A stretch of 64,000 nucleotides of DNA. Source: a virus. The notes beneath the pieces were generated by a model that had not been told where the DNA came from, searched no databases, and saw only the letters and a list, made by a program, of their open reading frames with translations. Positions 13,315 to 57,208 of the stretch are shown in pieces. Numbering within the stretch: position 1 is the first letter of the stretch; each line of letters opens with the position of its first letter. Location of the stretch: positions 19,890 through 83,889 of IMG/VR virus record IMGVR_UViG_3300042875_000652. One strand, given 5' to 3'. The position numbers were made by a program, and so were the translations under genes.

Positions 13315-16300
13315 ATGTTGCCTGAACTGTACGAATATAAGTCAACCACGCTCGGAACTTCCTTTGCGACCAAGGGTGGCTCCATCAACCTAGATGAAGC
13401 TCAGGGAATGGTTGAGTGCTTCGTAGCCGGAATAGGCAACAAAGACTCAGTAGGAGACATTGTCACTACTGGTGCGTTCACAAAAAGCCTTCAGCGCCGC
13501 AAGCCTCGTGTTGTTTGGGGCCACAACTGGAATGACCCAATCGGTAAAGTTTTAGAGATTTACGAAGTACCAAATACGGACCCAAGATTGCCTTTGAAGA
13601 TGAAGATGGCAGGAATCGGTGGACTTTTTGCTCGCGTTCAGTTCAACCTTAATTCCGAAAAAGGTAAAGAAGCATTCGCTATGGTTGCCTTCTTTGGTGA
13701 AGAACAAGAATGGTCAATCGGCTATAAGACGCTTCGTGCCCAGTTCGACCAGAAGTCGCAAGCAAACGTTATTTACGAACTTGAACTGTACGAAGTATCT
13801 CCTGTTCTTCACGGAGCAAACCAGCTCACTGGCACTATTTCCGTAAAGTCAGAAGAAGGTGGATATTCCGGTCCAGTTTCCTATATGGAAGAAGACGAAG
13901 AAGAAACCATAAACCGCGCAGAAATTGAAAAGCAATTGGGCTTAATGCTCGGCGCAAAAGTTTCCTTAATGGACGTAAACGGAGAAGAGCTAACCTTTGC
14001 TCGTCGTGCAGATAACGGTGAAGTTGGCCGATACAAGTGCCATTTCAGCGGAGGTCGCGGACGATACATGTTTGGAGCACCTGAGCCAATTACGGTTGTT
14101 GCACCACGCAGACCATCAGTGCCTATGCCCGGAATGCCAATGATGCCAATTGGGTCTCCAGGAATGGTGATGAATCAGCCTCAACGCCCCACGCGTCCGC
14201 CAGCAATGTCTATGCCTGTTGCGATAAGACCAGGACAAAATGGTCCTCAGATTATCGCGCTTCCAGCAGTTGAGTACGAAGATGATGATACTCAAGAATT
14301 TGACCCAACAAACTTGGACAAAGAAGAAGCAGACCTAAGAGACGCACTTCTCAAGATAACAAAACGTCACGGCAAGTTTAATCAAGACTCAGAAGGTGTT
14401 TGGGCCGGATACACGCCAGCTGCCGAAAACTCAATTGCTGGCATAGGCGTAAAATGTGCTAACTGCGTTTTTTATCAAGGTGGCGATAGCTGCAAGATAA
14501 TTGACATGGAAGTTGAATCAGAAGGAAAGTGCCGTTTTGCCGTCATTCCTAATGGAGTTGTCAAAGGTGATTCAACAGTCAAAAAGACATACGAAATCGA
14601 AGAAGAGTTCACTCAAGAAGACTACGTTTCCGACCTTGAAGTAAAATACCCTGGAGAGTTAGCAATAGCAGCCCTGCGTGGAGCTATCGGAAGACGTAGA
14701 AAAAAGCGTCGTAAGTTCAAGTTGCTAAGCGAGTTTGGTTCGCAAAGTGATTGGCCCGAAGAGAAGGCATACCTGTTGCCTGTCGTGCCAAAGTTTGCCT
14801 TCATGGTCAAGCAGGCCCTAGACCCAATATTTGACTATCACGGCGTTGAGTCTTTTGTAGACGTGGATGGAATTGTAATGACGTCTGGCATCAGTTATGA
14901 CTTAATTGATGCGGTAGATACGGCTGTTGATAACCTAAAAAAAAAGTCTATAAATCAAAATGACATCGAATGGAAAGCTGCTAGTTACCGACTTGGTCGT
15001 GCTATTGGTGGTCGTTTAACAAATAAACCAAATATTGGTGGAGGCCGTTCGGCCGGTCGATTCTTTACGTCAATTGGAGCAGAAGATTTTGACCCATTTA
15101 GTGCGCGTGATGCCAACCTAAACGGAATAGTCGGTGAAGGCTTATTCCTTCGTGGTGTTGCTCTAGCCACTCCAGACCCAACACCGGATGGCCCTGGTTC
15201 AATACGCAACCCAAAACCATCCCGCGCTCAAGTACGCAAGCCTGAATCAGAGATTCTTGACCGAGCTGGAGACGGCAAAGTCAAGCCTGTCGGCTCAAAA
15301 CTAAGTAGCGGAAAACTGTTTGACGTTCCACGCATAGACGACCCTGATGTAGATTCTGCGACAAAATACGGCTCCGCTGAGTCACAAAGAGACGAGCTTC
15401 AAGGCGTACTTGATGGTGCTTCAGACAAAGACCAAATAAAGAGACTAAAGCAAGCTATTGCTGAACTCGATAAATACATGAAGAGTGTTGAAAAAACGGT
15501 CGAAGGGGACATGGAACGCGAAAAGCGTCCAACAAAACCCAAGGCACCACAGGTTCTCAACAGAGAAAACACTCAGCTTGCCAGAGGAATAAAGCCTCAG
15601 CGTATACCAATCGCTAGTCAATCGATGACAAGCGTAGAACGTTTCTCTTCTGGGAAACTTCCCGACAAAGCTCAGCTTCCAGAAGGCTCCTCGCAGCTTA
15701 AAGAATTCTACGAAGCGATGGCAGAAGACGTAGTGAAGTTGCTCACGGAGTTAATGAACGACCCAAATAAAGATAAAAACTGGAAACTTCCATGGCGTCG
15801 CCCTGAGCTTTATGCAAGAAACCCTACGCGCGGTCGCGTGTATCAAGGCATGAACCAGATGACTCTTGGCTTGGTTGCAAAATCTCGCGGGTACGAACTT
15901 CCTCGATGGGCCGGAGAAGGTCAATGGAAAAAGCTTGGTGGAAAACTTAAGCCGGGTGGACGAAAGATGGGCGTTTCTATTCTTGTTCCACGAGAAGGAC
16001 GCACTTTCACAGACATAAACGGCAAGGAAGTCGTCGAGGGGCGCTACTACGAGGTACAAACTGTTTATAACGTAGCCGAAGTAGCTGGCCTCCCAAAGAA
16101 ATTTTATGAACCTATCGATGCGGACATAAATCAAGAAACAAGACTTGAAGATTTAGAAAACGTTATTAAGGAAATTGGTCCTGATTTCGTAGAATCATTT
16201 GGTGAGGATGCTTTTTATCGCCCATCAACAGACAAGATTCACATGCCTGCTTTTGAACAGTTTGTTGATGCTACGGCTTTTTATGGGACAGCAATGCACG

Positions 16301-19300
16301 AAACCGTTCATTGGACCTCTCACCCAACACGCCTAAACAGAACTTTAGGTAAAGAATTTGGCGATGAACAATACGCATTTGAAGAACTAATCGCTGAGAT
16401 AGGTTCAGCGTTCGCGTTGGGCGCAATGGGTATTGAGCCAACAATTAGAGACAATCACCTTGTTTATGTAGCAGGATGGTTGAAGAAACTGACAGCAGAC
16501 CCACTTGCCTTGCATAGGGCAATACTTTCAGCCCAACAAGCAAACGACTTCTTGCTAGACCGTTCCTCGACAATGCGAAGACTTGCTGGCATCCCGGACG
16601 ATGAAAGAAAAGGCAAAGACAATGCGTGGCTCGAAGTGCCAATGCTTGCTGGATACGAAGACTCTCCAAGAATCAAGCCGACAACAGGCGTAAGCGGCAC
16701 AATGGAAGACATGCTGGACGTGGAGTTCCCGCAGGACTTCGCACCAGAGGCTAGAAGAACGTCTACTGCGGAACGAGAGATGAGTTCTCTTTCACGAAAC
16801 CTACCAACAAAGACCAAAGATGGAATCGTCATTACTCCGTCTGGAAGACTTTCTAGCGGTAGAGGCCCAATCAAGGGCAAAAACCCTAATGCGCCAGAAA
16901 TAAAGCCCATAGATGAGACAGTAGCGCTCAGGCTTGCATTTGGTTTGTCAAACGAGCCAACCGAAGAGCAGCGAGACATCATGGCGGTTGCCATGAATCT
17001 CATTAGAAACAAAGACCCGCGCATATTGTCTATTCTTGCAGGTGCTGGAACTGGTAAAACCACAACGCTAAAGAGCATCGCATGGGGTCTGCAGAGAGAA
17101 TTCGACCTATGGCCAGAAGGCGACCTTCGGAGACCAGAACAACTCAGATACCTTTCAGATAGGTACGGCGTTGATTTCTCTGGCATGTCCGCGGAACAGG
17201 TTAAGGAATCTGTAGAAAAACTAGCTGAAGAAAAATCAATAAACAATCTTTACTATGCGGTATTTAACAAGAAAAATCAATTCGAAGCAGAATTGGAGTT
17301 TCCAAGAAATACCGGAGTATCAACAACCGACAAGATTTGGTACTGGTCACTAAAACTAGGACAAGGCGACAAAAAATACGGAACAGGAATGCGCAGAAAA
17401 ATGCAATTCGCATTGATTTCGCCTACTGACAGAAAAGTAAATAATCCCGGAGCCAAGAATCCTAAATTCATCAGCGAAGCTCTAACTCCTGACGAACCAG
17501 AAAGACTATTGCCACAGCAGGTACGGGAGCTCTTTGATGGAACAACCGAGTCTTTTGATGGAATTGAACCAGGATACAGAAGTCTTGGTTGGACAAGATT
17601 AGATACTGGAAGTGATTGGAAAGAATTTTTAGATTTTGCAGACGAGAAGCGCTGGAAGGGTCAAGAAACTAGACCAACTTCTGTTCCCATCTTGGACGAT
17701 AAGGGAAAACCAGTAAGAGACGCTAAGGGAAAAATTCAAACAACAATGGAAGATTCGTCTGGATTTATTCTTCCAGATGCGGGCTCAACATTTGTCAGTC
17801 GAGACCAATTCGGTGACCTTTTTAAAAATGCCCTTACTAGATGGAGTCTTTCAAAAGAAGAAAAAGCGTCAGCATGGATGTTTACGCAGCCCGCAATACT
17901 AACGCAAGAGCTAGATACGCCGCGCGGTTCTGGTAAGGACATCAGCCCTGTTGACACCATTTTAGATGAAAAAGATATTCCGGCTCAATGGGTAGAAGCT
18001 TTGCAGGAAGCAATAGACAAATTTTCCGATGGGGATAGCAGTATGCTTCCACCAAGAGATTCTGTCGCAAAACTGTGGATGCTTACGGAGCCAGACCTTC
18101 GCTCAGACCCGGGCTTGATAACGCATACCGAGTCTCAAGAGCGCAAAAAAACTATTCCAGATAGCTACGCGGTTGGAGACACGTATGAGCTTGAAGGCGA
18201 AACATGGATAGTCAAAACAAGAAAAAAGAGTAAAGGCAAAAACGTTCAAGTTACTCTAACCAAGAGAATGGCGACAGAAGAAAAACCACTCAGTGCATTT
18301 TTTGTTGACGAGGCGCAAGACTCAAATGAAATTCTTGAAACAGTGCTCGACAACAATAGAGCCAATCTTCCGATAGTTGTTGTTGGAGATGATAGACAAG
18401 CCGTTTATGCGTTTCGTAACGCGAAAAACATCCTTGAATCCCTAAACGCTGACTATGAATTAACAATTACCGAATCTTTTAGATACGGAGAAGTAATTGG
18501 GCATTTAACGAACCTTGCCTTGGGTATGCAAAACCTTTACCTTGACAAACAGGGCGTCCCTCAGTTGCCATGGAAACACGTTAAAGGCAAAGCTCAGGTT
18601 GTAGTAAACAGACTGTTCGACCCATTGCTTCCTAAAAAAGATAGAAAAGGTCTGGAGCCGGTTGACGAAATCGACGATATGACTCGTGAGTTCCTTCTTA
18701 AGGACTTGGAAGAAAAGTTTTCAACTCCAGAAAAGCGTTTGAATTTCTCTGTACATACGGTTGGAAAGAAAGCTGGAGAAAAATTAACACGCAAAGAGCA
18801 AGATGATAAATTAAGAGAACTAAGAGACTCCATTCTTGAGCCAAAAGCGGGGAAGATAGTCGACAGGGTTGAGGAAGCAAATAAAGAAGTTCCAAATCTC
18901 CCAACCATGATTCTCTGCAGAACCAACGCAGAAATCATTAACGAAACTCTCAAGTTCATTAAACTTGTCGTCGATAGTCCAAATGCGAAAAAAGATGATA
19001 ACGGGTTGCCAATTCTGCCAGAAGTAGTCATTCCTTTAAGCAAGCACGAAGAACTTCTAAAGTTTACGAGACATCTTGAGTACATCTTTATGCCTCAAGC
19101 AGAAAAAAGCAAGCGCGGTCTCCCCGAAGTATCGGGATGGATTGGACCCATCTTCGACCAGGGAGGACTGAAGAGAGTAATAAATCAGGCTTCAGGACAG
19201 CAGGCCAGAAGTGCATACAAACTAATAATGCAGGCCCCTCCTGGCGGCGGCGTGCCTCTTGGGATATCAGGAATGTTAACCCTTCTTCAGGGCAGACAGA

Positions 19301-22065
19301 AAATAGAAATAGATGCGAAAACCGGTAAAGAAAAAATTACTGTTATTCCTGCGTCAATTCTTCCAGAAAGAAAAAGCGTAACGCTTGAGAATTTCAGAAT
19401 AGAACCAGAAGAAATTGACTCAATATCTAAATTTTCTAAAGCCGCATCCGCCCCTCAAGCTAAAGAATCTCAACTACAAAGAATTGTAATAATTCCTCCA
19501 CCCAGCACCTCAACCGATGGTCGAGGTGCTGTATATGCTCAACTTGAAATTATAGGCGGAGACGAAAAGAAACCCGGAAAACCATCCGGACGCATTATCG
19601 TTACCGGTGACGGTGTGGATACCGGTAGACCACAAACACTCCCCGACGGCTCCGAAGCAAGAAACATACCTCCCAACCAAAGAGTAGGTAACGGTCGCTA
19701 TAGAAGAGACCTCGAAAAGGTCATCTTGAATCTTGGTTTATCCGACAAGGTAAAGATAATGCAAGACGCAGAGAGGGGCGGCCCGCGAGCCGGAGGAAAG
19801 CGCAGAGCGTTTGACGGATTTGTAATTGAGGGCGAAAACCTTGAAGAATCAACCAAAATATTAAACGACATTGGCCAAGCAATGAGAGATTCGGCTCAAG
19901 GCCCTGGTGGAGACGTTGAGATTACGACCATTCAGCTTTCAAAAGGCCGAGAGTCAGATTTTGTTGCAGTAGCAGAAGACTTGGGAGACCCTAGCGATTC
20001 ATTGGCTGCAAATATTCCACAAGGACAAGCAGGACTTGCCTTCATGGAGGAAACAAACCTCATCCATGTGGCGTTTTCTCGTGCGAAAAAAATGATTGAC
20101 CCAGGTTGGAAGGGGTTCAAGTATTATCTCCACGACGAATCTACAAAAGACGTCAGGGCAGCAATCAAGAAAGCAGTACAGGACGGCCATATACCGCCAG
20201 AACTAGACAAGGGGGCCTTTGGAGACGAAGGCGGTATTCCTCTTCCTAAGTTCTATGCAGCATTAAACAAGATGAGTCCTGACGATATAGATGAAAATAA
20301 TCTTCCAGACCGAGCAGCGCTTGATGAAAAAGAAATCGAAATTGACCCCGACCTCGTCTTTGACGTGGATAAGGATATTAACGATGTCGTTCGTGACCCA
20401 AGTGATTACGAATCAGAAGTAGACATAGATGACTTGATTGATGCGGACGAAATGGGAGACGATTCTGATGGTCAGATGCGCCTCTCTAGCGGAACCTCAA
20501 ACTTCCCTGGTCCTGGCCGCCGTCTGTCTAGAAGAATGGGCGTAAGAAGCAGTAGTCGCGTCACCCCTGGTGCCATAAGTGCTCAAGACCTTGCTGGAAT
20601 AAGACTCTTTGGAGACCCCAATTCACCCAACAACCGCCGCAAGACGGATTATGCAATGCAGACGTGGGCTGGATTCAGGGAAAGAGGTATCGAAATAAAT
20701 GCCGAAGGAAGAGAACAAACAAAAAACGCCATGAAAAAAGTCGGCGAAGCCATGAAGGCTCGTCAGAACAGGGTTCGGGTTGGGCGAGTTGGAGACAACT
20801 TGCGCAATGATAATCCTTCGGCGGAAACATGGATGCTCTCAGTAGACGCTCTCGCAGAGCAACTTCGCATTCCAGAAGATTTTAATGGCCAGGGCGAATC
20901 CCTTCGTTCTCGTTCTGCGACACGACAAGAGATAGCAAGTCTTTTGGGTTTGAGCGAAATGGACAAGCAGAAGATTCAAAATTCCGATGCTGGAGTAAAC
21001 CACGACGCAGTTCGTCTTTTGGTTGCTGAACTTGGAAATCAACCAGAGCTGGCAGGCTGGCGCTATTTTGCTCCGGTTTCAAGAGACGAAATCAGAAAGA
21101 TAATTCCATCCCCAACAGGAGACACGGAAAGTATCACCCCCCAAGTGGACATGGCAATGGAGAATGCCGGTAGGGCAAACATGCGTGACCGTTTCATTAT
21201 CGAAACGTTCGGCAAAGACGCCTTCCCTCATTGGTTCGACCAAGATGAAGAAGAAGCCATTAGTCCAGCCGAGTACTCTCAATTGGGTGAGGTCGACGAG
21301 AGGGCGAAGTTCCGTGCAACAGGACGATTTGCCCCCGATGACCCATTTGAGGGCGACTCTGAAGCCGAAATTGACCTTTATGGACAAAGCTTTGACGAAC
21401 TTGAGAATCCTCCATCCTTGTCTGCCGATGATGAAATAATCAAACTTGATAAAACAGATAAAAAAGACTTTGAGATTGAGCCTTTGCTTAAATATCTAGG
21501 AATAGATAAGAAAGAGTGGAGAACCAGACTTAGTGAAATTCTTTCTGAAAAGTTTGGAACCGATAGTACTGGAGTCAACCCTGAGTGGGAAAAGCAGGGA
21601 ATCCCAACCGCAACTATTGCTCACATGATTCGTAAAGGAGTCCTGCCAAATGCGGCAGACGTCTGGAAGGACGGCAAGGCAGGGAAACTGTTTGACGAAG
21701 AGATGGAAAGACCCAAGTATGCGGTTTATGAAGCCCTTAACGAATTCATAGACAGAAGCTTCCCGAACAGCAGACTCAACAGCAAAGAAAACCGTAACAA
21801 AATAGTCGGCGCGACAGATATGGGTACCGCACTTCGCGATGCTGCTGCTGCAAAAGGTTCAGCCTGGAGTGCAAAGAAAGGCAACGAGCCAAGGTTCGCT
21901 GTTTCTGAAATGCAAACAATGGTTGACAGGTTTAACGAGATATTCGGAACGGACCATACTCTTGAAGACATTTTCAGCGCCGAGCAATTAAGAAACGCTA
22001 AAACCAGAATTGAAAACGGCGAAACGCTGTCAGGTAAAAAAAGAAAGCCAAAACAGGCTGATTAA
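13315..22065 (+). CDS. Giant polyvalent protein 1: prohead protease, zinc-knuckle, ArdC-like, SF1 helicase
   Basis: 2916 residues. Residues 1-175 form an HK97-type prohead protease with candidate catalytic residues His70 (WGHNWND), Ser134 (EWSIGY) and Glu160 (YEVSPVL). A Met/Pro-rich linker follows, then a cysteine cluster from 381 (KCANC...C...C) and a D-x-N-x-N-G loop at 599. Residues about 781-1100 are ArdC-like: a DUF1738-type ssDNA-binding part (WKLPWRRP) and a zincin with HETVH at 995-999. Residues about 1185-2290 are a UvrD-type SF1 helicase: Walker A GAGTGKTT at 1243-1250, VDEAQD at 1664-1669, VGDDRQAVYAFR and a C-terminal HVAFSRAKK. The last 520 residues are helical and unrecognised. 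[RK]-x-SSG motifs at 662, 776, 1178 and 2389 fall between these parts. Similar fusions are described as phage polyvalent proteins, thought to enter the cell with the DNA. The frame is continuous and uninterrupted, so the fusion looks genuine. Individual domain calls are strong for protease and helicase, good for ArdC. Confidence 0.9.
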   Translation: MLPELYEYKSTTLGTSFATKGGSINLDEAQGMVECFVAGIGNKDSVGDIVTTGAFTKSLQRRKPRVVWGHNWNDPIGKVLEIYEVPNTDPRLPLKMKMAGIGGLFARVQFNLNSEKGKEAFAMVAFFGEEQEWSIGYKTLRAQFDQKSQANVIYELELYEVSPVLHGANQLTGTISVKSEEGGYSGPVSYMEEDEEETINRAEIEKQLGLMLGAKVSLMDVNGEELTFARRADNGEVGRYKCHFSGGRGRYMFGAPEPITVVAPRRPSVPMPGMPMMPIGSPGMVMNQPQRPTRPPAMSMPVAIRPGQNGPQIIALPAVEYEDDDTQEFDPTNLDKEEADLRDALLKITKRHGKFNQDSEGVWAGYTPAAENSIAGIGVKCANCVFYQGGDSCKIIDMEVESEGKCRFAVIPNGVVKGDSTVKKTYEIEEEFTQEDYVSDLEVKYPGELAIAALRGAIGRRRKKRRKFKLLSEFGSQSDWPEEKAYLLPVVPKFAFMVKQALDPIFDYHGVESFVDVDGIVMTSGISYDLIDAVDTAVDNLKKKSINQNDIEWKAASYRLGRAIGGRLTNKPNIGGGRSAGRFFTSIGAEDFDPFSARDANLNGIVGEGLFLRGVALATPDPTPDGPGSIRNPKPSRAQVRKPESEILDRAGDGKVKPVGSKLSSGKLFDVPRIDDPDVDSATKYGSAESQRDELQGVLDGASDKDQIKRLKQAIAELDKYMKSVEKTVEGDMEREKRPTKPKAPQVLNRENTQLARGIKPQRIPIASQSMTSVERFSSGKLPDKAQLPEGSSQLKEFYEAMAEDVVKLLTELMNDPNKDKNWKLPWRRPELYARNPTRGRVYQGMNQMTLGLVAKSRGYELPRWAGEGQWKKLGGKLKPGGRKMGVSILVPREGRTFTDINGKEVVEGRYYEVQTVYNVAEVAGLPKKFYEPIDADINQETRLEDLENVIKEIGPDFVESFGEDAFYRPSTDKIHMPAFEQFVDATAFYGTAMHETVHWTSHPTRLNRTLGKEFGDEQYAFEELIAEIGSAFALGAMGIEPTIRDNHLVYVAGWLKKLTADPLALHRAILSAQQANDFLLDRSSTMRRLAGIPDDERKGKDNAWLEVPMLAGYEDSPRIKPTTGVSGTMEDMLDVEFPQDFAPEARRTSTAEREMSSLSRNLPTKTKDGIVITPSGRLSSGRGPIKGKNPNAPEIKPIDETVALRLAFGLSNEPTEEQRDIMAVAMNLIRNKDPRILSILAGAGTGKTTTLKSIAWGLQREFDLWPEGDLRRPEQLRYLSDRYGVDFSGMSAEQVKESVEKLAEEKSINNLYYAVFNKKNQFEAELEFPRNTGVSTTDKIWYWSLKLGQGDKKYGTGMRRKMQFALISPTDRKVNNPGAKNPKFISEALTPDEPERLLPQQVRELFDGTTESFDGIEPGYRSLGWTRLDTGSDWKEFLDFADEKRWKGQETRPTSVPILDDKGKPVRDAKGKIQTTMEDSSGFILPDAGSTFVSRDQFGDLFKNALTRWSLSKEEKASAWMFTQPAILTQELDTPRGSGKDISPVDTILDEKDIPAQWVEALQEAIDKFSDGDSSMLPPRDSVAKLWMLTEPDLRSDPGLITHTESQERKKTIPDSYAVGDTYELEGETWIVKTRKKSKGKNVQVTLTKRMATEEKPLSAFFVDEAQDSNEILETVLDNNRANLPIVVVGDDRQAVYAFRNAKNILESLNADYELTITESFRYGEVIGHLTNLALGMQNLYLDKQGVPQLPWKHVKGKAQVVVNRLFDPLLPKKDRKGLEPVDEIDDMTREFLLKDLEEKFSTPEKRLNFSVHTVGKKAGEKLTRKEQDDKLRELRDSILEPKAGKIVDRVEEANKEVPNLPTMILCRTNAEIINETLKFIKLVVDSPNAKKDDNGLPILPEVVIPLSKHEELLKFTRHLEYIFMPQAEKSKRGLPEVSGWIGPIFDQGGLKRVINQASGQQARSAYKLIMQAPPGGGVPLGISGMLTLLQGRQKIEIDAKTGKEKITVIPASILPERKSVTLENFRIEPEEIDSISKFSKAASAPQAKESQLQRIVIIPPPSTSTDGRGAVYAQLEIIGGDEKKPGKPSGRIIVTGDGVDTGRPQTLPDGSEARNIPPNQRVGNGRYRRDLEKVILNLGLSDKVKIMQDAERGGPRAGGKRRAFDGFVIEGENLEESTKILNDIGQAMRDSAQGPGGDVEITTIQLSKGRESDFVAVAEDLGDPSDSLAANIPQGQAGLAFMEETNLIHVAFSRAKKMIDPGWKGFKYYLHDESTKDVRAAIKKAVQDGHIPPELDKGAFGDEGGIPLPKFYAALNKMSPDDIDENNLPDRAALDEKEIEIDPDLVFDVDKDINDVVRDPSDYESEVDIDDLIDADEMGDDSDGQMRLSSGTSNFPGPGRRLSRRMGVRSSSRVTPGAISAQDLAGIRLFGDPNSPNNRRKTDYAMQTWAGFRERGIEINAEGREQTKNAMKKVGEAMKARQNRVRVGRVGDNLRNDNPSAETWMLSVDALAEQLRIPEDFNGQGESLRSRSATRQEIASLLGLSEMDKQKIQNSDAGVNHDAVRLLVAELGNQPELAGWRYFAPVSRDEIRKIIPSPTGDTESITPQVDMAMENAGRANMRDRFIIETFGKDAFPHWFDQDEEEAISPAEYSQLGEVDERAKFRATGRFAPDDPFEGDSEAEIDLYGQSFDELENPPSLSADDEIIKLDKTDKKDFEIEPLLKYLGIDKKEWRTRLSEILSEKFGTDSTGVNPEWEKQGIPTATIAHMIRKGVLPNAADVWKDGKAGKLFDEEMERPKYAVYEALNEFIDRSFPNSRLNSKENRNKIVGATDMGTALRDAAAAKGSAWSAKKGNEPRFAVSEMQTMVDRFNEIFGTDHTLEDIFSAEQLRNAKTRIENGETLSGKKRKPKQAD

Positions 22066-22094
22066 AATTTAATTGAACTATCTACTGTTACCAA

Positions 22095-22125: not shown

Positions 22126-22183
22126 TAGAGACATTTAATGGTTAATGGTCTATCGGTCATTCCTTTGCACTAATAGGAGTTGT

Positions 22184-23842: not shown

Positions 23843-26800
23843 ATGGTGGATGCCCCTATAAATAGGGAAAGAATCGTAGTTTCGGCGCGGCTTATCGTGC
23901 CTTTGTCGTGCTGCGGTGGATTCAACGAAAAAGCACTTCGCTTTAGGCAGTCAATAAATTCTTCTGTATCTACTGGAAGACTAGAGCCAGAACTTGCATT
24001 AAAAGCAGTCGGTGACGTTTTTAGTTTAAGAAAAAAAACAGCCGAAGATACTGATAATAAAAAAAGAGAATTCACTGGAGACACTCGTCCCGGTGTTGCC
24101 TCAAATGAGTTCGGCTATCGCTGGGACAAATCAGCCAAGTGGGAACCAGGCTCTCGTCTTGTCATAAGCCCGTCGTATACGTCGCGCATGGGAATGGGAA
24201 CCATGCCGAACGTGGGTTGGATTCCTAGAGACGAAAATCAACCAAAGTCTTTTCAGGAAATGATTTCGAGAATTCAATCAGAACCTCAGATTCAGTTACG
24301 AAAATTTAAAGTAAATCCAAAAACTGACGACATAATCCCTGAGTCAGAAAAGATAATTGACCCTTTTGCTATTTCTTCCGGCATGACCATGGAAGAAAGA
24401 CGAAATGCTCAAAGAAAATATCAAATCGATAATCCTGAAGAAAAAAGACTTCCAGGCGCGAGTCTTGAATCACGAGTTCCGGGAGGCTCTCTTTTAAGTA
24501 GAGCAGCAGCTGTTTTTGGTATCCTGAGAGACGAGAACAACAAGTTTCGATGCCCTCCAGGAACTCCGGCAGCAAATCAGTTCACTGACGCAACTGGTTC
24601 CAACTGCTTCGGTTTTAGTGCTTCAAAGTTTTCACGTTTCGCAGCAAGGGAAGCAGCCAGACTTACGGCAGAAGGCGAATACGAGGGGTTGAGAACAAAC
24701 GCTAATGCTTTTTTTGGTTACCTATACGGCGGCAGTCAACAAGCAAGAGGCGTTGCAAGTCCAGAGTTTATTTCCCGATGCGCATACTGGGAAGACCTTT
24801 ATGGAGACAAATTAAAGCCGCCTTCATGGCGCGACACCCCTGTCACAGAAAATCTTCGTCTGTTCAAAAACGGAGCAATACGTGCACAGGACGATATTGC
24901 GAGACAAAAAGCCTCAGCAGTACGTATCTATGATGCTTTAGGAATCGACCCCAGTGACCCAAATGCTCATTTCCAGGCTGTCGAAAAATTACAGAAGATG
25001 CATGTTGATAGTGACGGTGCTGCTGGATGGGACTTAAAGATTTTAAACACTTCTTCTGGTGGAGACGCATCTCGTCTAACTGATTTAGAAGTCAGAGAGT
25101 TTACTGAAGCAAGACTTAAATCAGTTTCAGGGTGGAATCGTTTATCAAACGAAGAACAAAAAAGACTTATTGATTCTGACATTAGAAGGTATCAAGAGAC
25201 AGAACGAGCAATGTTCGAAACACTCTTGGACCAATTCATGCAAAATCCATCAACAGCGAGAGTGCTTGGAAGAGTTGAATATAACTTTTTATCTGATGAC
25301 GAAGCTGGAACAGGAATGTACAGAGATGCCCCCTCTATTGTTCCACGATTAAAACCAGACGGAACACCAGTTCTTGACAAAGCCGGCAACCCCGTAATGG
25401 GCAAAGTTCCCGGAGAACTACGTAGCGTTATTCATATAAACATGAAAGAAATTCTACAAAATCAAGAAACAATGCTTCCAAACATGGGACCAGATGAAAG
25501 ATTGGCAATTTCTGCGATTGGCGCACGAAGCGAAGCCGAAGGTCGTTTAGCGGTTGCAGATTTTCTTGTCAACGTAGACCATACCGCAAGAGGAATGGCT
25601 GGACTAATTGATGGTGTCTACTCTTTCTCTAGTCACATCATGCTTCACGAGCACGCACATAGTATTCAGCTTCAAGTATTCATGGCGAAAATTCAAGAAC
25701 AGATAGACAGCAAAGGTTTCATATCTGTTCCCATAGTAGACAGAAACGGAATCGTTAAAGGGACAAGAAACGTAGACTCAATCTACAGACTGTCCGGCGA
25801 TGACGTTATGGCGATAATGACCGACGTAGCGGACGACATAAACCTGGATTCCTTAAAAGACGCCATGGAGCGCATCAAATCTGTGGCACCTCTTGCTGGA
25901 GCGTATCCAAGAGATGCATACAAAGAAGGCTCAGAGGTTTGGGCTCTTGAAGTAGCAGCAGAACTACACGCCCTTCGCGCGAGAGGCATAATATACGGAG
26001 ACGACATTGACGCAGCTTTAGCCTTTATGGACGACATAGGCGATAGTAGAGCGTCGATTGACAGAGCTCTTGGTGACGAGACCGCAGCGCTTGTTGACAT
26101 GGACGACGTGTTCACTATTCGTCCAGACTCCGTCGTTCCGGACGGCATGCCGGAAGAATCCATAACAGAAGCGCTAGGGGACAGGGACGAACGCATTGCT
26201 TCTGCTCTTCGTGAGGAAATAAAACAATTCAAGACGGGATTCAAAGACCTTCCTGAAGATGAAATGATTTCAGAAGCTGCAATTATTGAATCTCAGAGAG
26301 ATGCTTCAAATAACACGTTAAAGAAACTTAATGATTTCGAGATTGACCCGTCCCTGCCTGAAGACGAGAAAGAGTCAATAAGGGGATATCTAGAGAATCT
26401 TAAGAAGCAAACGCAAATGGAATTGGACTTCCACGACACTAGATACAACGAAGCATCAAAAGCGTGGAGAAAAAAGTACGGCATCGGAGCTAGAGGAGAA
26501 AAAGACAGATTTAAAGAATCCGTTAAGGCAGTCCGTGAAAGAGAAGGACTGTTTGATGATGTTGAAATTGAAGAACTTGCAAAAATAGCAGCTCTCGACG
26601 ACCTTCGTAAGTCTGTAGAAAAAATGCCAGAGAAGAAGATAATTCGACGCCTGGCTGATGACGAAATATACCTAAGCACTCTTGACCCATCTTCCGACGA
26701 GGCTAAAAACCTAATTGAAAAGATTGACGTCATAAAAGAGCAGTATGTACAAAACATGCGTGACGCAGGAGACAAGTCGACGACTGCCAAATTAAAGAAA

Positions 26801-35695: not shown

Positions 35696-37063
35696 ATGTC
35701 GGAAGACAAGGCACGTACAGAAGAGCTTCAATCAGCTCTTCGCACAAAGATGGCAGACAATAAGACCATCGCAGATTCATTCAAAATCGAGGACGGCACA
35801 GTAGTCGTTACTCCTGAGCAAAAGTCAGCGTTCGACAAGAACATGCGCGACATCAAGGAAATCAAGGGCCTTCTCGGAGACCTTGAGACCATGAACCAAG
35901 TAGACAACTGGGCATCACAGCCATCAGGCGATTCTGCAGGAGCAGCTTATGCTGCCGCCGCAGCAGACCTCAATAGCTTGTCTTCACGTGAAATCAAGTC
36001 AATTGGACAAATGTTCACTGACTCACCAGAGTTCAAGGCACTTAATGGTGGCCGCAATGGAGCAAACATGGTTTCACCATGGCAAATTGCTGCATCGTTG
36101 ACTTCATACACTTCTGGTTACAACGTAAAGGACGTTTACTCGGGTCTGCCAACAACAGCAGTAACCGATAGCCGTCTTGGTTCATTTGGTTCCGTACAGC
36201 GTGACCCAATGGTATTGCCACCAACACGTACAAAGCGTGTTCGTGACTTGTTCCCAGTTCGCAAGACAAACGCTGCTGTTATCGAATACTTCCGTCAGCT
36301 TGGTTTCACAACCTTGCAGGCTGGAGCAGGCGTAAACAGTGCATCATCAGTTGCAGAGCGCAACGCCGGCAATACCGCATTCGGTATCAAGCCACAGTCT
36401 TCATTCGCCTTCGTTGGTGAGCAGGCTCCAGTGCGCACACTTGCACATTGGGAAGCAGCACACCGCAACGTTCTTGCAGACGAGCCACAGCTTCGAAGCA
36501 TTATCGACAACGAATTGATGTACGGTCTCCGTCTCCTTGAGGATAACCAAATCCTTAACGGTAACGGTACTGGTGAAAACTTGTTGGGCGTTCGTAACAC
36601 ACCAAACATCCAGACATACAACTGGTCAAGCGGTGCAACTCTGCCAGTGAAGGACACAAAGGCTGACGCGCTTCGCCGTGCGGCAACCCTTTCCTTCCTT
36701 GCTTACTACGAGCCAAGCGGCATCGTTCTTCACCCGAACGACTGGGAAGACATCGAACTTACTAAGGACTCACAAGGCCAGTACCTCATCGCAGTTTCGG
36801 TTGCAATGGGTGGCGAGCCACGCGTCTGGCGTATGCCAATCGTTGACACTCCTGCAATGACTGAAGGTAAGGCACTTGTTGGAGCCTTCGGTACCGGAGC
36901 ACAGTTGTACGACCGTGAAGAAGCAAGCATCCGCATCAGCGAACAGCATTCGGACTTCTTCGTCCGTAACGCAATCGTTATCCTTGCAGAGCAAAGACTT
37001 GCGCTTGCTGTCAAGCGTCCAGAAGCATTCGTTGAAGTAACCTTCGACAACGCACCAGCCTAA
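35696..37063 (+). CDS. Major capsid protein (HK97 fold)
   Basis: 455 residues. An N-terminal helical region of about 100 residues acts as the delta domain in this family, working as a built-in scaffold and normally removed by the prohead protease. The HK97 core follows: VLPPTRTKRVRDLFPV, FVGEQAPVRTLAHWEAAHRNVLADEPQL, LRLLEDNQILNGNGTGENLLGV, IVLHPNDWEDIELTKD and the final RNAIVILAEQRLALAVKRPEAFVEVTF. S-L-S-S-R at 94-98 lies near where the delta domain should end and partly matches the L-S-S-G motif of the giant proteins. Codon use looks more biased than in neighbours, as expected for the most abundant protein. It has its own leader and terminator. Confidence 0.96.
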   Translation: MSEDKARTEELQSALRTKMADNKTIADSFKIEDGTVVVTPEQKSAFDKNMRDIKEIKGLLGDLETMNQVDNWASQPSGDSAGAAYAAAAADLNSLSSREIKSIGQMFTDSPEFKALNGGRNGANMVSPWQIAASLTSYTSGYNVKDVYSGLPTTAVTDSRLGSFGSVQRDPMVLPPTRTKRVRDLFPVRKTNAAVIEYFRQLGFTTLQAGAGVNSASSVAERNAGNTAFGIKPQSSFAFVGEQAPVRTLAHWEAAHRNVLADEPQLRSIIDNELMYGLRLLEDNQILNGNGTGENLLGVRNTPNIQTYNWSSGATLPVKDTKADALRRAATLSFLAYYEPSGIVLHPNDWEDIELTKDSQGQYLIAVSVAMGGEPRVWRMPIVDTPAMTEGKALVGAFGTGAQLYDREEASIRISEQHSDFFVRNAIVILAEQRLALAVKRPEAFVEVTFDNAPA

Positions 37064-48178: not shown

Positions 48179-51100
48179 ATGTCTTCCGATAATGAATTCC
48201 CCATCCCTTTCGAGGAGTCCAGACGCGGTCTGGCGGCTAACCAAGAGGAAAAAGCGGCCGTAGGGCGACTTGGTCAGTATTTAGCTTCTCGCGGAGTTAA
48301 TAGACCGACAATCGGCGAAGGGCGCAAAAAAAGAAGAAGCGGCAATATCGAGCTTCCCACTGGCGGCAAGCCAGGCCAAAGAAACCCTACCGGTTCGAGA
48401 AGAGACGTTGACGGCGATGGCTGGGCAGACGAGGGAACCACCAAGCCAGTATGGGTCGGCACCGAGAGTCAAGCAGGTAAGCCAAATACTGTTGCTCGTC
48501 TTTCTAGTGGCATGGTGCAACTTTCACCAACAGAGCGGCACGACTATGGCGCTCTTGTGGCGTCAAAAAAAGTTCAAGCGAAAGACGTCAAAGGCAAAGG
48601 CGGAGAATACAGAATAGTCATAACGACATCGGGAACCGTAGCCGCATTTCTTGATTCAGACATTGAGAAAGAAAGAAACAACCTTCTCGACAGATTTAAC
48701 GAGCTAGGCAAAAATCCTTTTACAAACAAAGAAGCCCCCCTTGCATTGAAGGACATTGATGACCGGGATGTACTAAGAGGACTGCTCGATGACCAGCGAA
48801 AAATTAAACCATCAGCAGGAATGCAGGTCTACCTATCCGGCAAAGGCATTGAAGTTTTCGGAATAGAAACAAGAGAAAAACACCGCCGTCGTGGATTAGC
48901 AACAGAGATGTTTAACTTTCATCGTGAAGTATTTCCCGACCAAGACCTCCAACATAGCGACGCGTTGACTGATGACGGTAGGGCTTTTGCCGACGCGACT
49001 CCCACTGTCTCCGTATCGGCAAAACTTTCCTCTGGCAAAGGACGTAATACAAAGCTAAACGTTACGCGCTATGGAAAAGACGACGAATACGCGCAGGTAT
49101 CGTCTTTTGAAATTGACGGCAAAGTGTTTGAGATTTCTCGTGGTGGAGACTCTCCCGGCAGAGACATGTACAACGGTTACATCTCTGCGTTCGACGAGGA
49201 TAAAAACGTTGCATACATCGACTACAATATGGATACAGAAAACAAGAAAGCCGTTGTGGCAATGGTTTTCACCGATGAAGAATATCGTCGTCAAGGAATA
49301 GCCGAAGCCCTTCTTGATTCTTTTGTGACAGAAAATCCCGACTACGAGATAAGCCCTGGTGGCACCACCGACGAAGGTGGAGACTGGTGGCGTTCGGTTA
49401 CTGGTGGGGATGGACCAATAAAAGCAGAAAAAGCTACACAAACGCAAGAAGGTCTCTTTTCACCACGCAAAGGAGAGCAGGGAGACTCCGGCTCAAGGCT
49501 TTCTTCTGGAAAAAAATATCAGGAGATAGTTGATTCCCAGCCATCGTTAAGCGAAGATAAAAAACAATCGATAGCTAATTTTCTTGATGATATTGTGTCA
49601 GAAGAATTTCAAAAAGAAGATATTTATGTGCTTGATACCGGTCCGACGCCACCAAGGCCTCCCGGAATGCCAGAACCAAAGCCGAGACAAATACTTAAAG
49701 ACGATGAAAAAAGAACTCTAGAAAAAGAACGAGTTCGCAACTTGTTAGCCGAAGTATTTAAAGGCGAGATGACCCTAGACAAAGACGTCATCATCACCGC
49801 TGACGACGGGACACAATTAAACATAGGAAAAAAAGTCCTAGTAGAAATAATGCCGCAATCTTCCTATGCGCCAGCGATAAAGGTAAAAAAGGCTTCTGAA
49901 AAAGACCTTGCGGAACAGGATGAATTAGGACTGTATGAAGAAAATATAAAAGAGGGTGACTTAGTAACAGAACTGCAACTTGAATTCAGGATTAAGCCAC
50001 TTCCTGAGTACAGCGACGCACTCTTGGCTATATTTAATGATGAAGATGGAAAAAGATACATTTCCAGAGAAGACGGTACACCGGCTCTTGCGACGGGATA
50101 CAGAACATTCATTCAGGTGTCTGGAGATGACAAAGACGTTCGAATTGTCTCTCACGATTCTTTTTACATCAACAATCGTGCCCAAGGTCAAGGAATTGGG
50201 TCTGTTTTTAATGCTAGAAATGAAAAATTATACAACGAACTTGATGTTCGTTCCATAATTACTTGGGGTAATTCCGGCAGTGGTTCAACCGGTGCTGTTC
50301 ATTGGCCAAAAAATGGTTTCTCTTGGGCAGGAGAGAAAGATAAGCAGGATTTTATAAAATTAATTGATGAGGCAATCGTCAATACTCCAGAAATGTTTTC
50401 TGAAGAAGATAGAAAAAAGATATCTTCCCTGTACAGAAAAAATAACGATACTGGATTGTTTGAGACGGAAGCCACGGCAGAAGAGTTTGTAGATTTTCCT
50501 AAAGCAGACGAAGTTTTTTCTAATGCAAATGCTCAATTCTTCTACTCAAGACCACTAAGAGAGCTGGCTGGGGCTTCTTCTGGAAGTAGCGGTTCAGCAA
50601 GGCTTTCCAGTGGTAGAGCTCCTCGATACCCGCGCGAACCAACGCTGGGTGCTTTCCTTGAAGGAGCGCAAGAAAGATTTGAAGGCGTTGATTCCTGGGA
50701 GGAGTTCAAGGAGCGCTATGCCGAAACCGAAATGGTATTTCTTGACTACGAAACAACCGGATTAGATTTCGACGAATTCGGTAAAGCAACCACAAACGGT
50801 AACCCAACGCAAATTGGTCTTGTAAGAATGAAGAACGGCAAAGAAATAGGCCGTTTAAATCTTTTCATGAACCCCGAACAGCCTCTTGGTGAATGGTCTT
50901 TAGCAAACCTTAAAGATGCAGATGGTAATCCAATAACCAACGAATGGCTTGCTACGCAAATGCCAATGGCGGAAGCCCATAGACAAGTTGCTGAGTTTAT
51001 TGGACCAGACGCAATCATTGGTGTACAGAATGCAACGTTTGATAAGAGAGTGCTTGAAGATGCGTTAGAAAGAGACGGCATAGATTGGCGTCCTTCTGGC

Positions 51101-54100
51101 TATCTTGACACAAGAGACATAAGTGCAATGACCTTGCCTGTATGGAGCGAAGAGAGCCCAGAAGGTCCCTATATAACCGATAGAGACGGAAATAAAAAAC
51201 CATCCAGCAGTCTTGCTGCAATAACCGAATATTTGGATGTTGAATTAGGTGAGGGTCACCACAACGCCGATGCCGACGCTTTCGCAACCAGTCAGGTTAT
51301 GCAGAAGATAATCGATAGAGCCATTGAGAACGGATGGTCCACTGACGTCTTGGATAAAGAAAAAAGAGACGCAAAACTAAAAGCAGACAACGATAAATTT
51401 AACGCAGATATTGAAAAGTTTGAATCAGACAAAGAGTCTTTTGTTTCAGCCCAGAAAGAAGAGGAAAGCACAAGGCTTTCTTCTGGAGCTAGAGCCAAAA
51501 GAAGCATTCCGCCGATATCTGAAATTAGGAAAGAAGTAGGGAGATTCTATAGAGAATCAGAAATGTCAGATGCAGATGTTGTTCGTACGTATCTTCAAAT
51601 TAGAAACCGTGATGCAGAGGAATTATACGAATCAAGACATACTAGCGGCAGGGAAATATCCGACGAAATAGGTGAGCATTTCTCAAGGTTTCGAGACTTC
51701 ATAGATAATGAGAGAATCTCAATAGACGGAATGAGCGATAGTGAAATTCTAGAAATCTTAAAAAAAGGAAAATATCGTTCAACAATAGATTCGTACGACA
51801 ACGCAATAGACAATATTGGACCTGTTCCCTCAAAGAATTCAAATCGTCTTTCTTCCGGCAGACAGCGCGAATTAATACCAATGAATGCTCCGTCAAAGGA
51901 GCGAAAAGGAACTGGTGCTACTGGCTACAGAACTCAAGACTCTTCAGGAAATTTGATTAGTAGGTATTCCTCAACGTGGCTTTCCGGTTTGAGTTCTGAT
52001 GAAATTTCTAAGGTTGTTGTTCCTGTCAATGCTGATGAGCATTTCGAGATGTGGGCTGACGATATTGCTGGACCAAACTGGCGAGCCAGTAAAAAACAGC
52101 AAAAATTCATCAAGAACTACTATGAGGAGCTACAAAAAGACTCAACTAATATTCCTGTTGATTATTCTCCAGAATCAATAGCTGCTACCCAGAAATTAGT
52201 AAAAGACCTGCTGGATTCTTCCCCTTCTGTTATGTGGGTAATGCAAAACTTCGGAGCACCATTGATTGTTCCGTTCACTCGCGAAGGAATGGACGCTTAC
52301 GAAAACAGTCCAGACATGAAAGAACGACTAGAGCTTCTTGCCAAGCAACGCGGAACAGAAAAAATCCCATTTGTTAGCGGACTTGCAAATCGTTCCTTGG
52401 GGTCTATAGGTATTTCTCCACGAGCCCTGATAGATAGAGAATCGTTACTTAATGACGACAAGGGTGTTTACCCAATAAGTTTAGACCCAGACCGGGTTCC
52501 GGCACCACGAGATGCTCACATAGATAGGTCCCTAGAAGGAACACTCGTTCACGAGTTTGGACACTGGATACATCACAGAGCGCTTTGGGATACGGAAACA
52601 AACGGCGCTTCAGGAAAAATGCGCTCATATTATGGAACTGGAAAGCTTTCTGACCCAAGATACGTAGCTTCGCTTGATGTTGCAGAAGAATACGGTGACT
52701 ACGAAACTGACGACAAGAGAATAGAAATCTATTCGCAGTTCATCGACCTGACTGGAAGAAGCCCTGAAGAAATGTTCAGAGCCCACCCCGATGAGCCTCT
52801 CCTATCCACCTCTTACGGAAACATAAACAAAAGAGAGGCCATGGCAGAAGCCTTTGTTGCAATAATGCATCCAAACAAGGAAATGCCAGAAAAGACCCTG
52901 AGCAAGAAACTCAGAAAAGACATTTATACGCTAATTGGCGTTGACGAAAAAAACCTTCCATGGAGCGATTCTAAAGCTGGCTCGGAAAATCGCCTTTCAT
53001 CGGGTGCCAAAAAAGACAAACGCAAAACAATTTTCTCAAGATTCAGAAAAGAAGAAACTGAAGAAGCAACCGTTGAGGAAAAAAGGAAACCTCCAGTAGT
53101 GGAGAGACCTGAAGGCCTGGTTTCGTTCGCTACCGAACCGTCAGAAGAATTGCTTAAAGCCTTACCAATACCTGATGAAGACACCTTAAAGAACGAGTTA
53201 CTAAAAGACGTACAGTCTATAGCGTTGGAATTCGACAAAGGAGCCTATGGAAGTATTGACTCGATAGGGATGGGTTCAAGAGCTTCTATTATTGCCAAGA
53301 AAGCAATTACCGCAAACCTGTCTCGCTCGGTAGATTTTGATGTTGAAGATTTTATTAAAGTTTTTTCTGCAGGCAACGACCGTTTCGGTTTTCACAGTAC
53401 GGAAACTTTTAAAGCAGTACAAAAAATGTACGAAACTGTAAAAAACCTACCAGCAGATGCTGCGAGCACGGAAAGAAGAACGGCTGCTAGGGGTGCTTTT
53501 GATACAAAAAGCGGACGTATTATTTCGGCAAAAATACATGACGACATTCTTGGTAGAGCACGATATTACGACGAAATATTAGACAGGCTAGAAAAAGAAA
53601 ACTTTGACGAACTTTTTGGCTCCTCTTTTGATGAATTAATGGCTACAGACGGTAGCGAAAAATCACTTTTTACCCCTTATTTAATGACGAAACTTGGAAC
53701 TGACGATATTAGAAGAGAGTTTCTAGAAGAGATAGAGCCACGGCGTGGACTTTTAAACCGCCTTATCGAAGCAGTTGAACTACAAGAAAGTAAAGCTTTC
53801 GGGCTTGCCAGAATAGGGGAAATAAATCCCAACACGGGAGAACGCGATTATGAAGTAATTTCATTACTGGGTCGTGGAGTAAACATGGGCGTCATGGATG
53901 CAATGTCGTCTCTTGATATTAGTGATGAAGATTATGGTCAAAAATTTGCAGATATTATGTCTGAGTTTAAAGGTTGGCTAACGGCAGAAAAACTCATGAA
54001 AATACGCGACTCGGGTTTGCTTAAAATAGATAGTTCAAACATTGATTCGCCAGAAATTAAAAAAGCACTAAAAGAGCATCTAGTAGCAAACGTACGTTCT

Positions 54101-57100
54101 AGAGCTGGAAATTTTGAATCAAAGCGGGAAAGCTACACAAACAAAACGGGAGTTGTGTTCTTTGATTTAGAGACAACCGAAGGAAAACGACTTGTTCGAG
54201 AATCTCTGATTTCCGACCTTATTCATACTTGGGCAATCTCGGCCAACAACGCAAACCCGGTTGCTCTTGCAGTTCAGCATGAAATAAGAAAGATGTTTGG
54301 ATTGACCGAAGCCGTGGGTTGGTCAACTTGGCCGCTTAAAGCTCTTCTCCCGGAAGAAAGGGAGGAAATGTCGGCTCACGAATTTGACGGAGCTCCCGAA
54401 TTGACGGATGCTCAATCAGCAATGATTAGACCGATTCTCCAAAATATATATGATGCTACTCAGCTTTATTACAAAACAAAAGGGGTTACACACGTACCCA
54501 TATACAGAGGATTTTCTCAGAATAATATAGATTTAACCCCGGGAGTTATTTCACCGATAGAAACAACAATGCGGCCACTATCTTCATGGAGCACGAGCTC
54601 GGGAGTCGCTTTGGGTTTTAGTAATTCTGGAGGAGAAGTAGGTGGACCTTTGGAGCCTACACTGCTTAAAGCTTTTGTTCCCGTTGAAGATATATTTTCA
54701 CACCCATTGAGCGGGTTTGGGTGTCTTTCTGAAGATGAAGTAGTTGTTATTGGCAAGCCGGTCAAGGCTTTTGCGATTCTCGCGTACGACAGTGAGGAAG
54801 CAACACGTGCTAGAAACAGATTAAAAAACGCATCGATGTCAGCTATTGCCGGAGAAGGGAGAGCGTCTAAATTAACTACTTCAAATATTGAAGAGCTTAT
54901 AAAGCCTGGTTCAGATTTGTCATTCATAGACGGAAGCGACCTAGACATAGAAGACGCAGACCTACGCAGTGCAGACCTCACTGAAGCAAACTTATCCGGC
55001 GCAAGCCTGGTTGGTTCCAACCTGTCTGGCGCAAACTTAACAAACGCAAAGCTGAATAACGCAAACCTGTCTGACTCAAATCTGATTGGCGCAGACTTGT
55101 CTCGTGCAGACTTGCGTGGTGCAAACCTGGGTGGCGCAGACCTGTCCGGTGCAGACCTGACGGGTGCAAACCTAATAGATGCTGACCTCTCAAATGCAAA
55201 CCTGGAAGGCGCAAGACTTGAAAACGTAAGACTGGGTAGCGTAGACCTGTCTGGTACAAACTTGACTGACGCAGACCTCACTGGTGCAAACGGCCACAAT
55301 ATAAACCTGAGTGGTGCTGACCTGACCAATGCAAACTTTACTGCTGGATTCCTTATGAATGCAAACTTGACTGATACAAACCTGAGCGGTACAGAATTGA
55401 GTTCTGCAAACCTAATGGGTGCGAAGCTGAATAAAGCAAACCTGACTGGCGCAAATCTGTCTTCTGCAGACATGGCTGATACAGACCTGACTCGTGCAAA
55501 CCTAAGTGGTGCAAACCTAAGTGGTGCAGACCTAAGAATAGCAAACCTCACTGAGGTGGACTTAACGGGCGCAGACTTGACTGGCGCAGACCTAACCCAA
55601 GCAAACCTCACTGGCGCAAACCTTGAAGCGGCAAACCTGACTGGTGCAAACCTCACTGATGCAATAATGCCCGAGGGATACGTCACGGCCGATAACCAGT
55701 CCTCTGAATCGGTCCAAAAACTTTCTTCAGGCAAGAAATCACACACTCCAGAATGGAAAACAGTTGAAGAGATTGTTGATTTTGAAGTTCTTGGAGCATC
55801 TCCTGATGATAGCGAAGAAGACAGAGACGATATAGTCAAAGAGTCTGTTGGTGGAGACTGGATGCAATGGGACCCATGTCGCGAAATAAGAACAGCCGCA
55901 TACGAACTTGCTGGAATAGACGAGTACTCAGAACGAGACCCAAATATCACTCAAAGTGGTGGGTTCTTTGGAAACTCAAGATTTGACACAGCTATTTCTC
56001 CCGAAAAGAGAACCGAACAAGCCCGCTATCTTATGGCAAGCATTGTCGATTCTTTAACGAACAAAGCAAGATACGAAAAACAGCCTTATCTATATAGAGC
56101 AATGGCGTTTTCGTCTCCAGAAGAAGGAAAACAGTTCTTCGACACAATGAAGGTCGGTAATCAGGTAGATATACCGTTACTTGCTTTTGTTGAAATAGGT
56201 CCATCTCCTAGTGGGGACCATTTCTTGACAAGATTCGGCAACGACGCTCTCTTGGTGCTAGAAGACTTCCCTGGGTCATATCAAACGGGCGGAACATTTG
56301 AGCCAGTCTTCTCTAGCAGGTATGAAAGCGACACTCTTTACAACGTCAATGAATTTGCAGAAGCAATATTGGCTGATATAGAAAACGGAGTCTCTGACGA
56401 AGAGAATATTGAGAACGATACCGAGTTTGCTAACAGGCTTATAAAACTTGTTGATGATTATCAAAAGTCCAGAGACCCGGCAGAGAGACGACAACTAAAA
56501 ACAGACATAAAAGACACGCTGGATGAAGTGGGGAATGAAACCATAAAGCTTGAATGGGAAGGTGAGTCACTGCCTGAAGACCACGAAGATTATTACCTCG
56601 CTATGGAAGACGAGGAAACAGGAATGACTCCACGTGAATACGTTTCTGGAGGAAGACTTGAAGTTGTTAGCGTAAATCCAGACCCAACAAAGACTTACAA
56701 AGAAATAATCACGCTTCGCCAAGTTGGTGCTTTTGACCCACAAGAAAAGGGTGCTCTAGTTCTCAAAACCGACGGAGAAAACAGCACGAGATTATCCTCT
56801 GGCAAAAATCCTTCAAAGAAAGCAAAGCCAAAGAGCGTTCAGCTTCACGATGACGAATTTGAGAAAAAGTTTAATCAAAAAGTCCCCGATGGAGAGGGTG
56901 ACTGCTTTAGTGAAGCAATACAGCAGGCTAGAAAACTGGCCGATGCCTACGAAAATGTAAAAATAGTACATGGCTATCCTCTTGGTACCGGAGGAGAAGC
57001 AGAAGGGCTCAGATTCCCACATGCATGGACAGAGTTCGAGAGAGACGGTCTGGTGTGGGTACGGGATTACTCAAACGGCAACAGAGTAGAGTTTCCACAG

Positions 57101-57208: not shown

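Follow-up and report, generated by a model that had tools for sequence, protein, structure and literature searches.

Short lineage-specific words at the module borders of giant phage proteins: probable tags of a polyprotein code

Why should one short word, lysine or arginine followed by LSSG, recur between the domains of three giant proteins of a single virus from a freshwater phage family? The question is raised by a window of 64,000 nucleotides (bases 19890-83889 of the 83,889-base virus record IMGVR_UViG_3300042875_000652) that encodes these proteins, here called giants 1, 2 and 3. Our analysis leads us to read the motif as a border tag of phage polyproteins that is recognised in trans, most likely by a phage protease that cuts at the tag, and we put the probability of this reading at about 0.75. 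Each giant would then be a chain of separately folded modules, in which most joins carry a short tag within a disordered linker. One phage-encoded factor per phage would read the tag in trans, most likely a protease cutting at or beside it, and one translation product would thus yield several proteins. Reader and tag would change together, so that sister lineages would use LSSG, FSSG, ISG[RK]M or GFASxG. Cutting, the identity of the cutter, packaging and injection are steps that we infer.

All three giants are open frames over their full length. A preliminary description of the window had listed 15 exact [KR]LSSG in them, and every position matched; amino acid composition predicts 0.039, in line with its estimate of well below one. 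Its statement that other proteins of the window lack the motif agrees with a six-frame scan, which found no [KR]LSSG beyond these 15. The sites had also been placed between recognised domains, and indeed none falls within the best-matching Pfam stretches of S78 (residues 32-175), ArdcN (797-888), MPTase (946-1069), GNAT (332-381) and RNase_T (853-1040); for giant 2, neither Pfam nor PHROG nor NCBIfam gives a match. The variants fared differently. RFSSG at residue 776 of giant 1 fits the code, and RLSSTG at residue 1410 of giant 2 is a genuine degenerate site since it reads RLSSG in two homologs, but RSSSG at residue 2205 of giant 2 is not retained in three homologs and is probably due to chance. 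Elsewhere in the window R[FS]SSG occurs four times; the frames concerned have 20-183 codons and are either short ones or ones overlapping giant 2. Giants 1 and 3 resemble polyvalent proteins in being multidomain with several unrelated conflict-type activities, according to their Pfam and PHROG domains.

For a comparative view the S78 domain of giant 1 was used as a query against IMG/VR, which gave 541 relatives, of which the best 80 were kept; these 80 loci include near-duplicates. A further 19 records were taken whole and, with the window's own, make up a set of 20, every one picked from S78-matching loci; they may be fragments. Open reading frames (ORFs) were called mechanically as the longest non-overlapping frames, so that some genes were missed, such as the capsid genes of G028 and ChisanaKitsune. 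The 12 records with LSSG-type words hold 237 [LF]SSG per 131,883 aa in proteins of at least 1000 aa and 19 per 378,296 aa in smaller ORFs, a 36-fold difference in density. Among the best 80 loci, near-duplicates included, the S78 giant has at least two [LF]SSG in 66 of the 66 that hold at least 1000 aa of it. For the first nine records, proteins of at least 1400 aa carry 11-22 sites against 0.44-0.59 expected, and the rest 0-3 against 1.0-2.5. Ranked by capsid protein, the annotated phages listed highest are Gordonia phages and Brevibacterium phage Cantare, with identities of about 46-52%. No called ORF of GMA6, Cantare or the first 50 kb of ChisanaKitsune (the only part covered) gives a protein of at least 1400 aa, and [LF]SSG occurs there 5, 1 and 0 times against 1.28, 1.01 and 0.65 expected, with two of the five in GMA6 lying in proteins above 1000 aa. 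The genome collection yielded three matches, all contigs of metagenome-assembled genomes, and no LSSG-type word is prominent in their plus-strand frames above 600 aa, one of them partly masked.

The sites are not fully confined to the giants. On the same record outside the window (L143 11570-16300, minus strand) lies what we take from its sequence to be the tape measure protein, with two exact sites at residues 36 and 562. Among the 12 LSSG genomes this protein has two sites in eight, one in two (one of these truncated by the end of the record) and none in two. The tape measure protein of G026 has GLASRG at 51 and GFASSG at 633, and the picture is mixed in the five genomes with ISGxM words (G017, G018, G019, G022 and G033), two of which have no sites there. 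A tail protein may be a substrate of the same reader as the giants.

The wording of the sites differs from genome to genome. G014 uses SLSSG, G009 and G023 mostly FSSG, G000 and G029 [KR]LSSG, while the first position is loose in G002 and G005. When the 31 giants with at least three sites from 12 genomes are compared, the make-up of their sites groups by genome (none of 5000 label shuffles reaches the observed value); this test ignores the kinship of the genomes, but compares non-homologous giants inside one genome. LSSG is not in excess in the sister lineages (the five ISGxM genomes and G026), which have words of their own. G017, G018 and G019 use ISG[RK]M or I[ST]GKM, with 51 [IV][ST]GxM per 32,179 aa in large proteins and 3 per 70,481 aa in small ones. 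The looser [IV][ST]GxM of G022 and G033 is found 28 times per 23,195 aa in large proteins compared to 3 times per 55,589 aa in small ones, and the word of G026 is GFASxG, with 21 GFAS in large proteins and none in small. The matrix of words against genomes is near block-diagonal. Since separately encoded giants share the wording of their lineage, a factor acting in trans, such as a protease, would be expected to read them all; the concerted wording thus gives indirect support to recognition in trans.

Do the sites mark the borders of modules? When giant 3 is compared with its homologs from seven further records, modules recur in a different order, and the shared pieces begin and end at or near sites. 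For instance, the exonuclease piece, counted from the L or F of the core, covers residues 809-1100 in the window phage, 870-1162 in G012, 587-870 in G006, 103-397 in G014, 1484-1773 in G009 and 2461-2753 in G005. For a quantitative border test the motifs were masked so that alignments were not attracted to them, and circularly shifted sites served as the control (500 shuffles). Of the 476 alignment ends in giant 3, 81.5% are no more than 40 aa away from a site, compared to 23.3% for shifted sites, a value that none of the 500 shuffles reaches. The corresponding proportions are 45.2% and 13.4% for giant 1, 61.7% and 10.2% for giant 2, and 28.2% and 6.2% for the tape measure protein; at 10 aa the signal of giant 2 is weak and is reached by 13 of the 500 shuffles. 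At 25 aa the ISGxM genomes give 30.3% against 11.0%, and the group of G023, G036 and G029 gives 0.260 against 0.111, both above all 500 shuffles. Some longer alignments cross sites, for example 108, 441 and 1606 of giant 3 of the window, in at least one homolog.

The exonuclease module can be followed through all 18 genomes with a word. It is bordered by LSSG, SLSSG, FSSG or ISGRM depending on the phage, in 16 of the 18 the word of the respective genome is no further than 15 aa from at least one edge, and in 10 this holds for both edges; some of the alignments in this comparison stop early. No site lies inside its aligned part in any of the 18. The preliminary description had set as a test that motifs should follow domain borders in homologs, and module shuffling, masked alignment ends and exonuclease edges all strongly bear this out. 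Six ORFs that stand alone in sister phages each align with one of the 351 inter-site segments, with at least 60% of ORF and segment alike covered; a 128-aa ORF of G010, for example, is 50% identical to the last module of giant 3. All eight giant-3 proteins compared begin with the N-terminal module. Elsewhere it can lie further in, as other phages have a relative of it at about residue 560-583 of the S78 giant (six loci).

An AlphaFold2 model of residues 1-1200 of giant 3, built from a 20-row alignment, has a mean pLDDT of 68, and segments with pLDDT below 50 include 94-104, 269-289, 395-443, 796-812 and 1093-1129. Sites 282, 440, 808 and 1099 overlap these segments and site 107 begins three residues past one, giving an overlap for four of five sites. 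Other low-pLDDT stretches carry no site, the longest being within 1-75 and 1131-1164. The exonuclease fold of the module is confirmed by Foldseek. As a separate observation, regions of about 1998-2199 and 2515-2872 of giant 3 resemble ADP-ribosyltransferase-type modules by eye, without a family match; a relative of the former occurs without the pentapeptide part in G009.

Which factor could read the tags? The S78 prohead protease domain of giant 1 is our tentative choice, at somewhat less than even odds. Its PF04586 score lies above the cut-off, which places it in the family by profile, and its match to TIGR01543 reaches 49.6 bits, under the 59-bit cut-off of that model (E-values in the table); a PDB sequence search with the domain found nothing. 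In the LSSG and GFAS lineages the domain forms part of a giant, whereas the ISGxM lineages have it within a protein of 776-881 aa. The cutting by prohead proteases in HK97, phi12, SPN3US and P1 is counted in its favour. Its presence in 20 of 20 records was dropped as support, as this follows from selecting the records by S78 match; when 27 records were found by the capsid gene instead, 21 had an S78 match. We also dropped an argument from the absence of zincins in the ISGxM genomes, as a scan for HExxH found one in each. The capsid was considered as a carrier of the same site, through SLTS at 134-137 and KDVYSG, and rejected since the element does not track the code. By alignment the N-terminal region of the capsid protein is delta-type, where cutting is presumed, and its KDVYSGLP element lies near the equivalent of HK97 K103/S104 and departs from the code. 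In the capsids of two Gordonia relatives, ScarletRaider (L204) and ChisanaKitsune (L160), KDVFSSG is found near the aligned delta-domain cut, close to the FSSG of giants. A basic residue before the cut, as in HK97 and phi12, is not a general requirement, given that G014 uses SLSSG.

A presence and absence comparison with 104 queries singled out just two, the exonuclease module and DUF6321, as present in 18 of 18 genomes with a word and 0 of 5 without, and a six-frame repeat agrees. A Pfam scan of one protein of the ISGxM lineage shows DUF6321 fused to S78, and by eye the S78 proteins of the other four genomes seem to have it as well, which makes it a possible adaptor. MPTase-PolyVal was rejected as a universal reader because blastp finds no match to ArdC-MPTase in any of the five ISGxM genomes.

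Several observations weigh against our reading or against S78 as its agent. There are borders without sites, such as both exonuclease edges in G029 and G026 and one edge in six others, and outside the main set (in the ISGxM genomes and in G023, G036 and G029) the border test is weaker. G022 and G033 match only the loose form of their word, and no word was found in G027 and G028, both of which have S78. The ISGxM and GFAS words came from enrichment in the giants of these same lineages, so their counts are partly post hoc; the agreement of exonuclease edges with each genome's own word is independent support for them. The S78 domain is 71-91% identical to that of the window across words, and all 80 of the capsid loci have the element KD[VI][YF][ST], whichever word the giants use. 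Neither S78 nor the presumed capsid site thus changes in step with the code, and this constancy argues against S78 as the reader of a changing code. Of the six capsid-bearing records without an S78 match, five carry code-type sites, though all six records may be fragments. The two queries confined to genomes with a word correspond to no known protease. Finally, we infer the cutting of the giants and their place in virions. The polyprotein code of the preliminary description is partly supported, by the border tracking and by the wording that separate giants share, and its proposal that the fused protease may be the cutter stays a supposition with evidence against it.

It is possible, though rather unlikely, that the cutter is instead a metalloprotease of zincin type, the one in giant 2 or its counterpart, perhaps as self-processing before packaging or after entry. 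In 18 of 18 genomes with a word, HExxH occurs in giant 2 or the corresponding protein, near residue 470-603, and in 12 aligned giant-2 sequences the motif (602-606 of giant 2; H403, E404 and H407 of A2) and a downstream glutamate (E508 of A2) are invariant while the sequences are down to 28-65% identical to that of the window, as much divergence as a changing reader should show. That zincins process polyvalent proteins was predicted earlier (peptidase section of PMC5512222), and the sites in the tape measure protein suggest a reader that acts beyond the prohead. However, HExxH is also present in relatives without a word, no observation ties the protein directly to the tag, and the AlphaFold2 model of the zincin-type region has no PDB match in Foldseek at E 0.001 or better, so that the zincin fold is not confirmed. 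We prefer S78 as the cutter only slightly over this protein, and the rest of the probability falls to other readers or to none. Another, unlikely, explanation is that the tag stays uncut and serves for docking, with a partner such as a packaging factor, chaperone or unfoldase, occurring about once per module. Docking motifs also lie in disordered linkers and co-vary with their partner, and cutting is itself a prediction; however, tags lie at the edges of shuffled units and a few modules stand alone as ORFs, which fits separation better. That a host protease reads the sites after injection, with lineage words following host differences, seems improbable. It would suit the variation of words by lineage, but it leaves the near-confinement of the tag to giants and tape measure proteins unexplained.

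The remaining explanations place the cause at other levels. Module shuffling happens at the tags, which could make them DNA-level scars or hot spots of shuffling. The 15 window sites comprise 14 distinct 15-mers with both serine codon families in use, and their pairwise DNA identity is 62.3% compared to 58.9 +/- 2.7% for random synonymous codons (reached by 111 of 1000 draws), with 30-nt flanks at background identity. Motif DNA no closer than codon usage gives, together with background flanks, speaks against a common DNA element as the main cause, in agreement with the earlier claim that selection acts on protein, and separate giants share wording by genome; we consider DNA scars very improbable. 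In the site flanks S, K and P are frequent and L, F and Y scarce, as might be so in ordinary Ser/Gly linkers, but an exact four-residue core, the 36-fold density gap between large and small proteins and the different words of sister lineages make such linkers, or a chance repeat, hardly credible. Our preferred reading of a border tag read in trans can be carried further, to a family of double-stranded DNA (dsDNA) phages with true polyproteins, in which the several giants of each phage would be cut at a strict tag into many effectors and enzymes by one trans-acting protease and codes would have co-evolved to be mutually unreadable, so that modules could be exchanged only once their tags were rewritten. 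We lean towards this fuller version with modest confidence.

The features discussed are collected in the table. Two tRNA genes also lie in the window, tRNA-Arg at 39342-39416 and tRNA-Met at 61822-61898. Giant 2 and a 675-aa protein (32154-34181) have in common a short Cys-containing element, RCPxG...FTD...C, which is invariant as RCPPGTPAANQFTD across the 12 aligned giant-2 sequences.

Table. Coordinates of the giants, their sites and related features in the window
Feature	Position	Strand	Remark
Portal gene	11134-13188
Giant 1, 2916 aa	13315..22065	+	N-terminal S78 prohead protease, ArdC-N, MPTase-PolyVal, UvrD-like helicase; 3 exact sites and RFSSG
S78 (HK97-type) prohead protease domain	13315..13872	+	Candidate reader; PF04586 4.7e-11; TIGR01543 4.3e-13
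KLSSG, giant 1 residue 662	15298..15312	+
RFSSG variant, giant 1 residue 776	15640..15654	+
ArdC-N and MPTase-PolyVal region, ~residues 790-1100	15682..16614	+	PF08401, PF18818; between sites 776 and 1178
RLSSG, giant 1 residue 1178	16846..16860	+
RLSSG, giant 1 residue 2389	20479..20493	+
Giant 2, 2389 aa	23843..31012	+	HExxH zincin-type motif; 3 exact sites and RLSSTG
Giant 2 zincin-type region, residues 471-800	25253..26242	+	HEHAH at 602; rival candidate reader
RLSSG, giant 2 residue 1311	27773..27787	+
RLSSTG degenerate site, giant 2 residue 1410	28070..28087	+	RLSSG in two homologs
RLSSG, giant 2 residue 1449	28187..28201	+
RLSSG, giant 2 residue 2035	29945..29959	+
HK97-fold major capsid protein gene	35696..37063	+	Presumed natural S78 substrate
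DUF6321 protein, 273 aa	37156..37977	+	Possible adaptor
Giant 3, 3009 aa	48179..57208	+	N-terminal module, GNAT, DnaQ-like exonuclease, zincin-type module, pentapeptide repeats; 9 exact sites
RLSSG, giant 3 residue 107	48497..48511	+	End of N-terminal module
KLSSG, giant 3 residue 282	49022..49036	+
RLSSG, giant 3 residue 440	49496..49510	+
RLSSG, giant 3 residue 808	50600..50614	+
DnaQ-like exonuclease module	50615..51472	+	Between sites 808 and 1099
RLSSG, giant 3 residue 1099	51473..51487	+
RLSSG, giant 3 residue 1223	51845..51859	+
RLSSG, giant 3 residue 1605	52991..53005	+
KLSSG, giant 3 residue 2514	55718..55732	+
RLSSG, giant 3 residue 2871	56789..56803	+

In T4 the prohead protease removes propeptides from head proteins. 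The HK97 capsid protein is cut at K103/S104 and that of phi12 at R128/L129 (PMC10275583, PMC8569155). According to the parts of these papers considered here, the site lies in the capsid protein and the two phi12/SaPI substrates have no strict motif in common, whereas the present sites are many, strict and located in giants other than the capsid. In SPN3US and P1 the prohead protease removes propeptides of head proteins, and in P1 DarA is cut and DarB has an N-terminal packaging signal (PMC10052503, PMC9024508, PMC12810830). Nearly all the cuts there are of N-terminal propeptides, sometimes stepwise, and the portions of these sources that we draw on describe neither a polyprotein divided module by module nor a lineage word.

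With a strict lineage-specific word the predicted processing of polyvalent proteins becomes testable, and the border word gives the likely limits of the mature proteins. It can also be used for splitting unknown giant phage proteins into modules. Furthermore, LSSG, SLSSG, FSSG, ISG[RK]M and GFASxG form a natural set for studying the joint change of a protease and dozens of its sites. No site code for giant polyvalent proteins was found among the literature matches listed, in which subscription journals are thinly covered.

RNA-virus polyproteins are single translation products with the protease within the chain and conserved sites at the joins of modules. The present case differs in that the genome is that of a dsDNA tailed phage, separate giants use one code, modules are reshuffled, and cutting is presumed. 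A link between the two was made by Iyer et al. 2017 (PMC5512222), who predicted that embedded peptidases process polyvalent proteins and explicitly drew the comparison with RNA-virus polyproteins. The polyvalent proteins of phages and conjugative elements described there are likewise large and multidomain, with ArdC-N, MPTase, GNAT and nucleic-acid enzymes. Within the text of that source drawn on here, the assemblin-like peptidase is always C-terminal and no site code is named, whereas in the giants of the window phage the peptidase is N-terminal and a repeated, lineage-specific border word is common to several giants.

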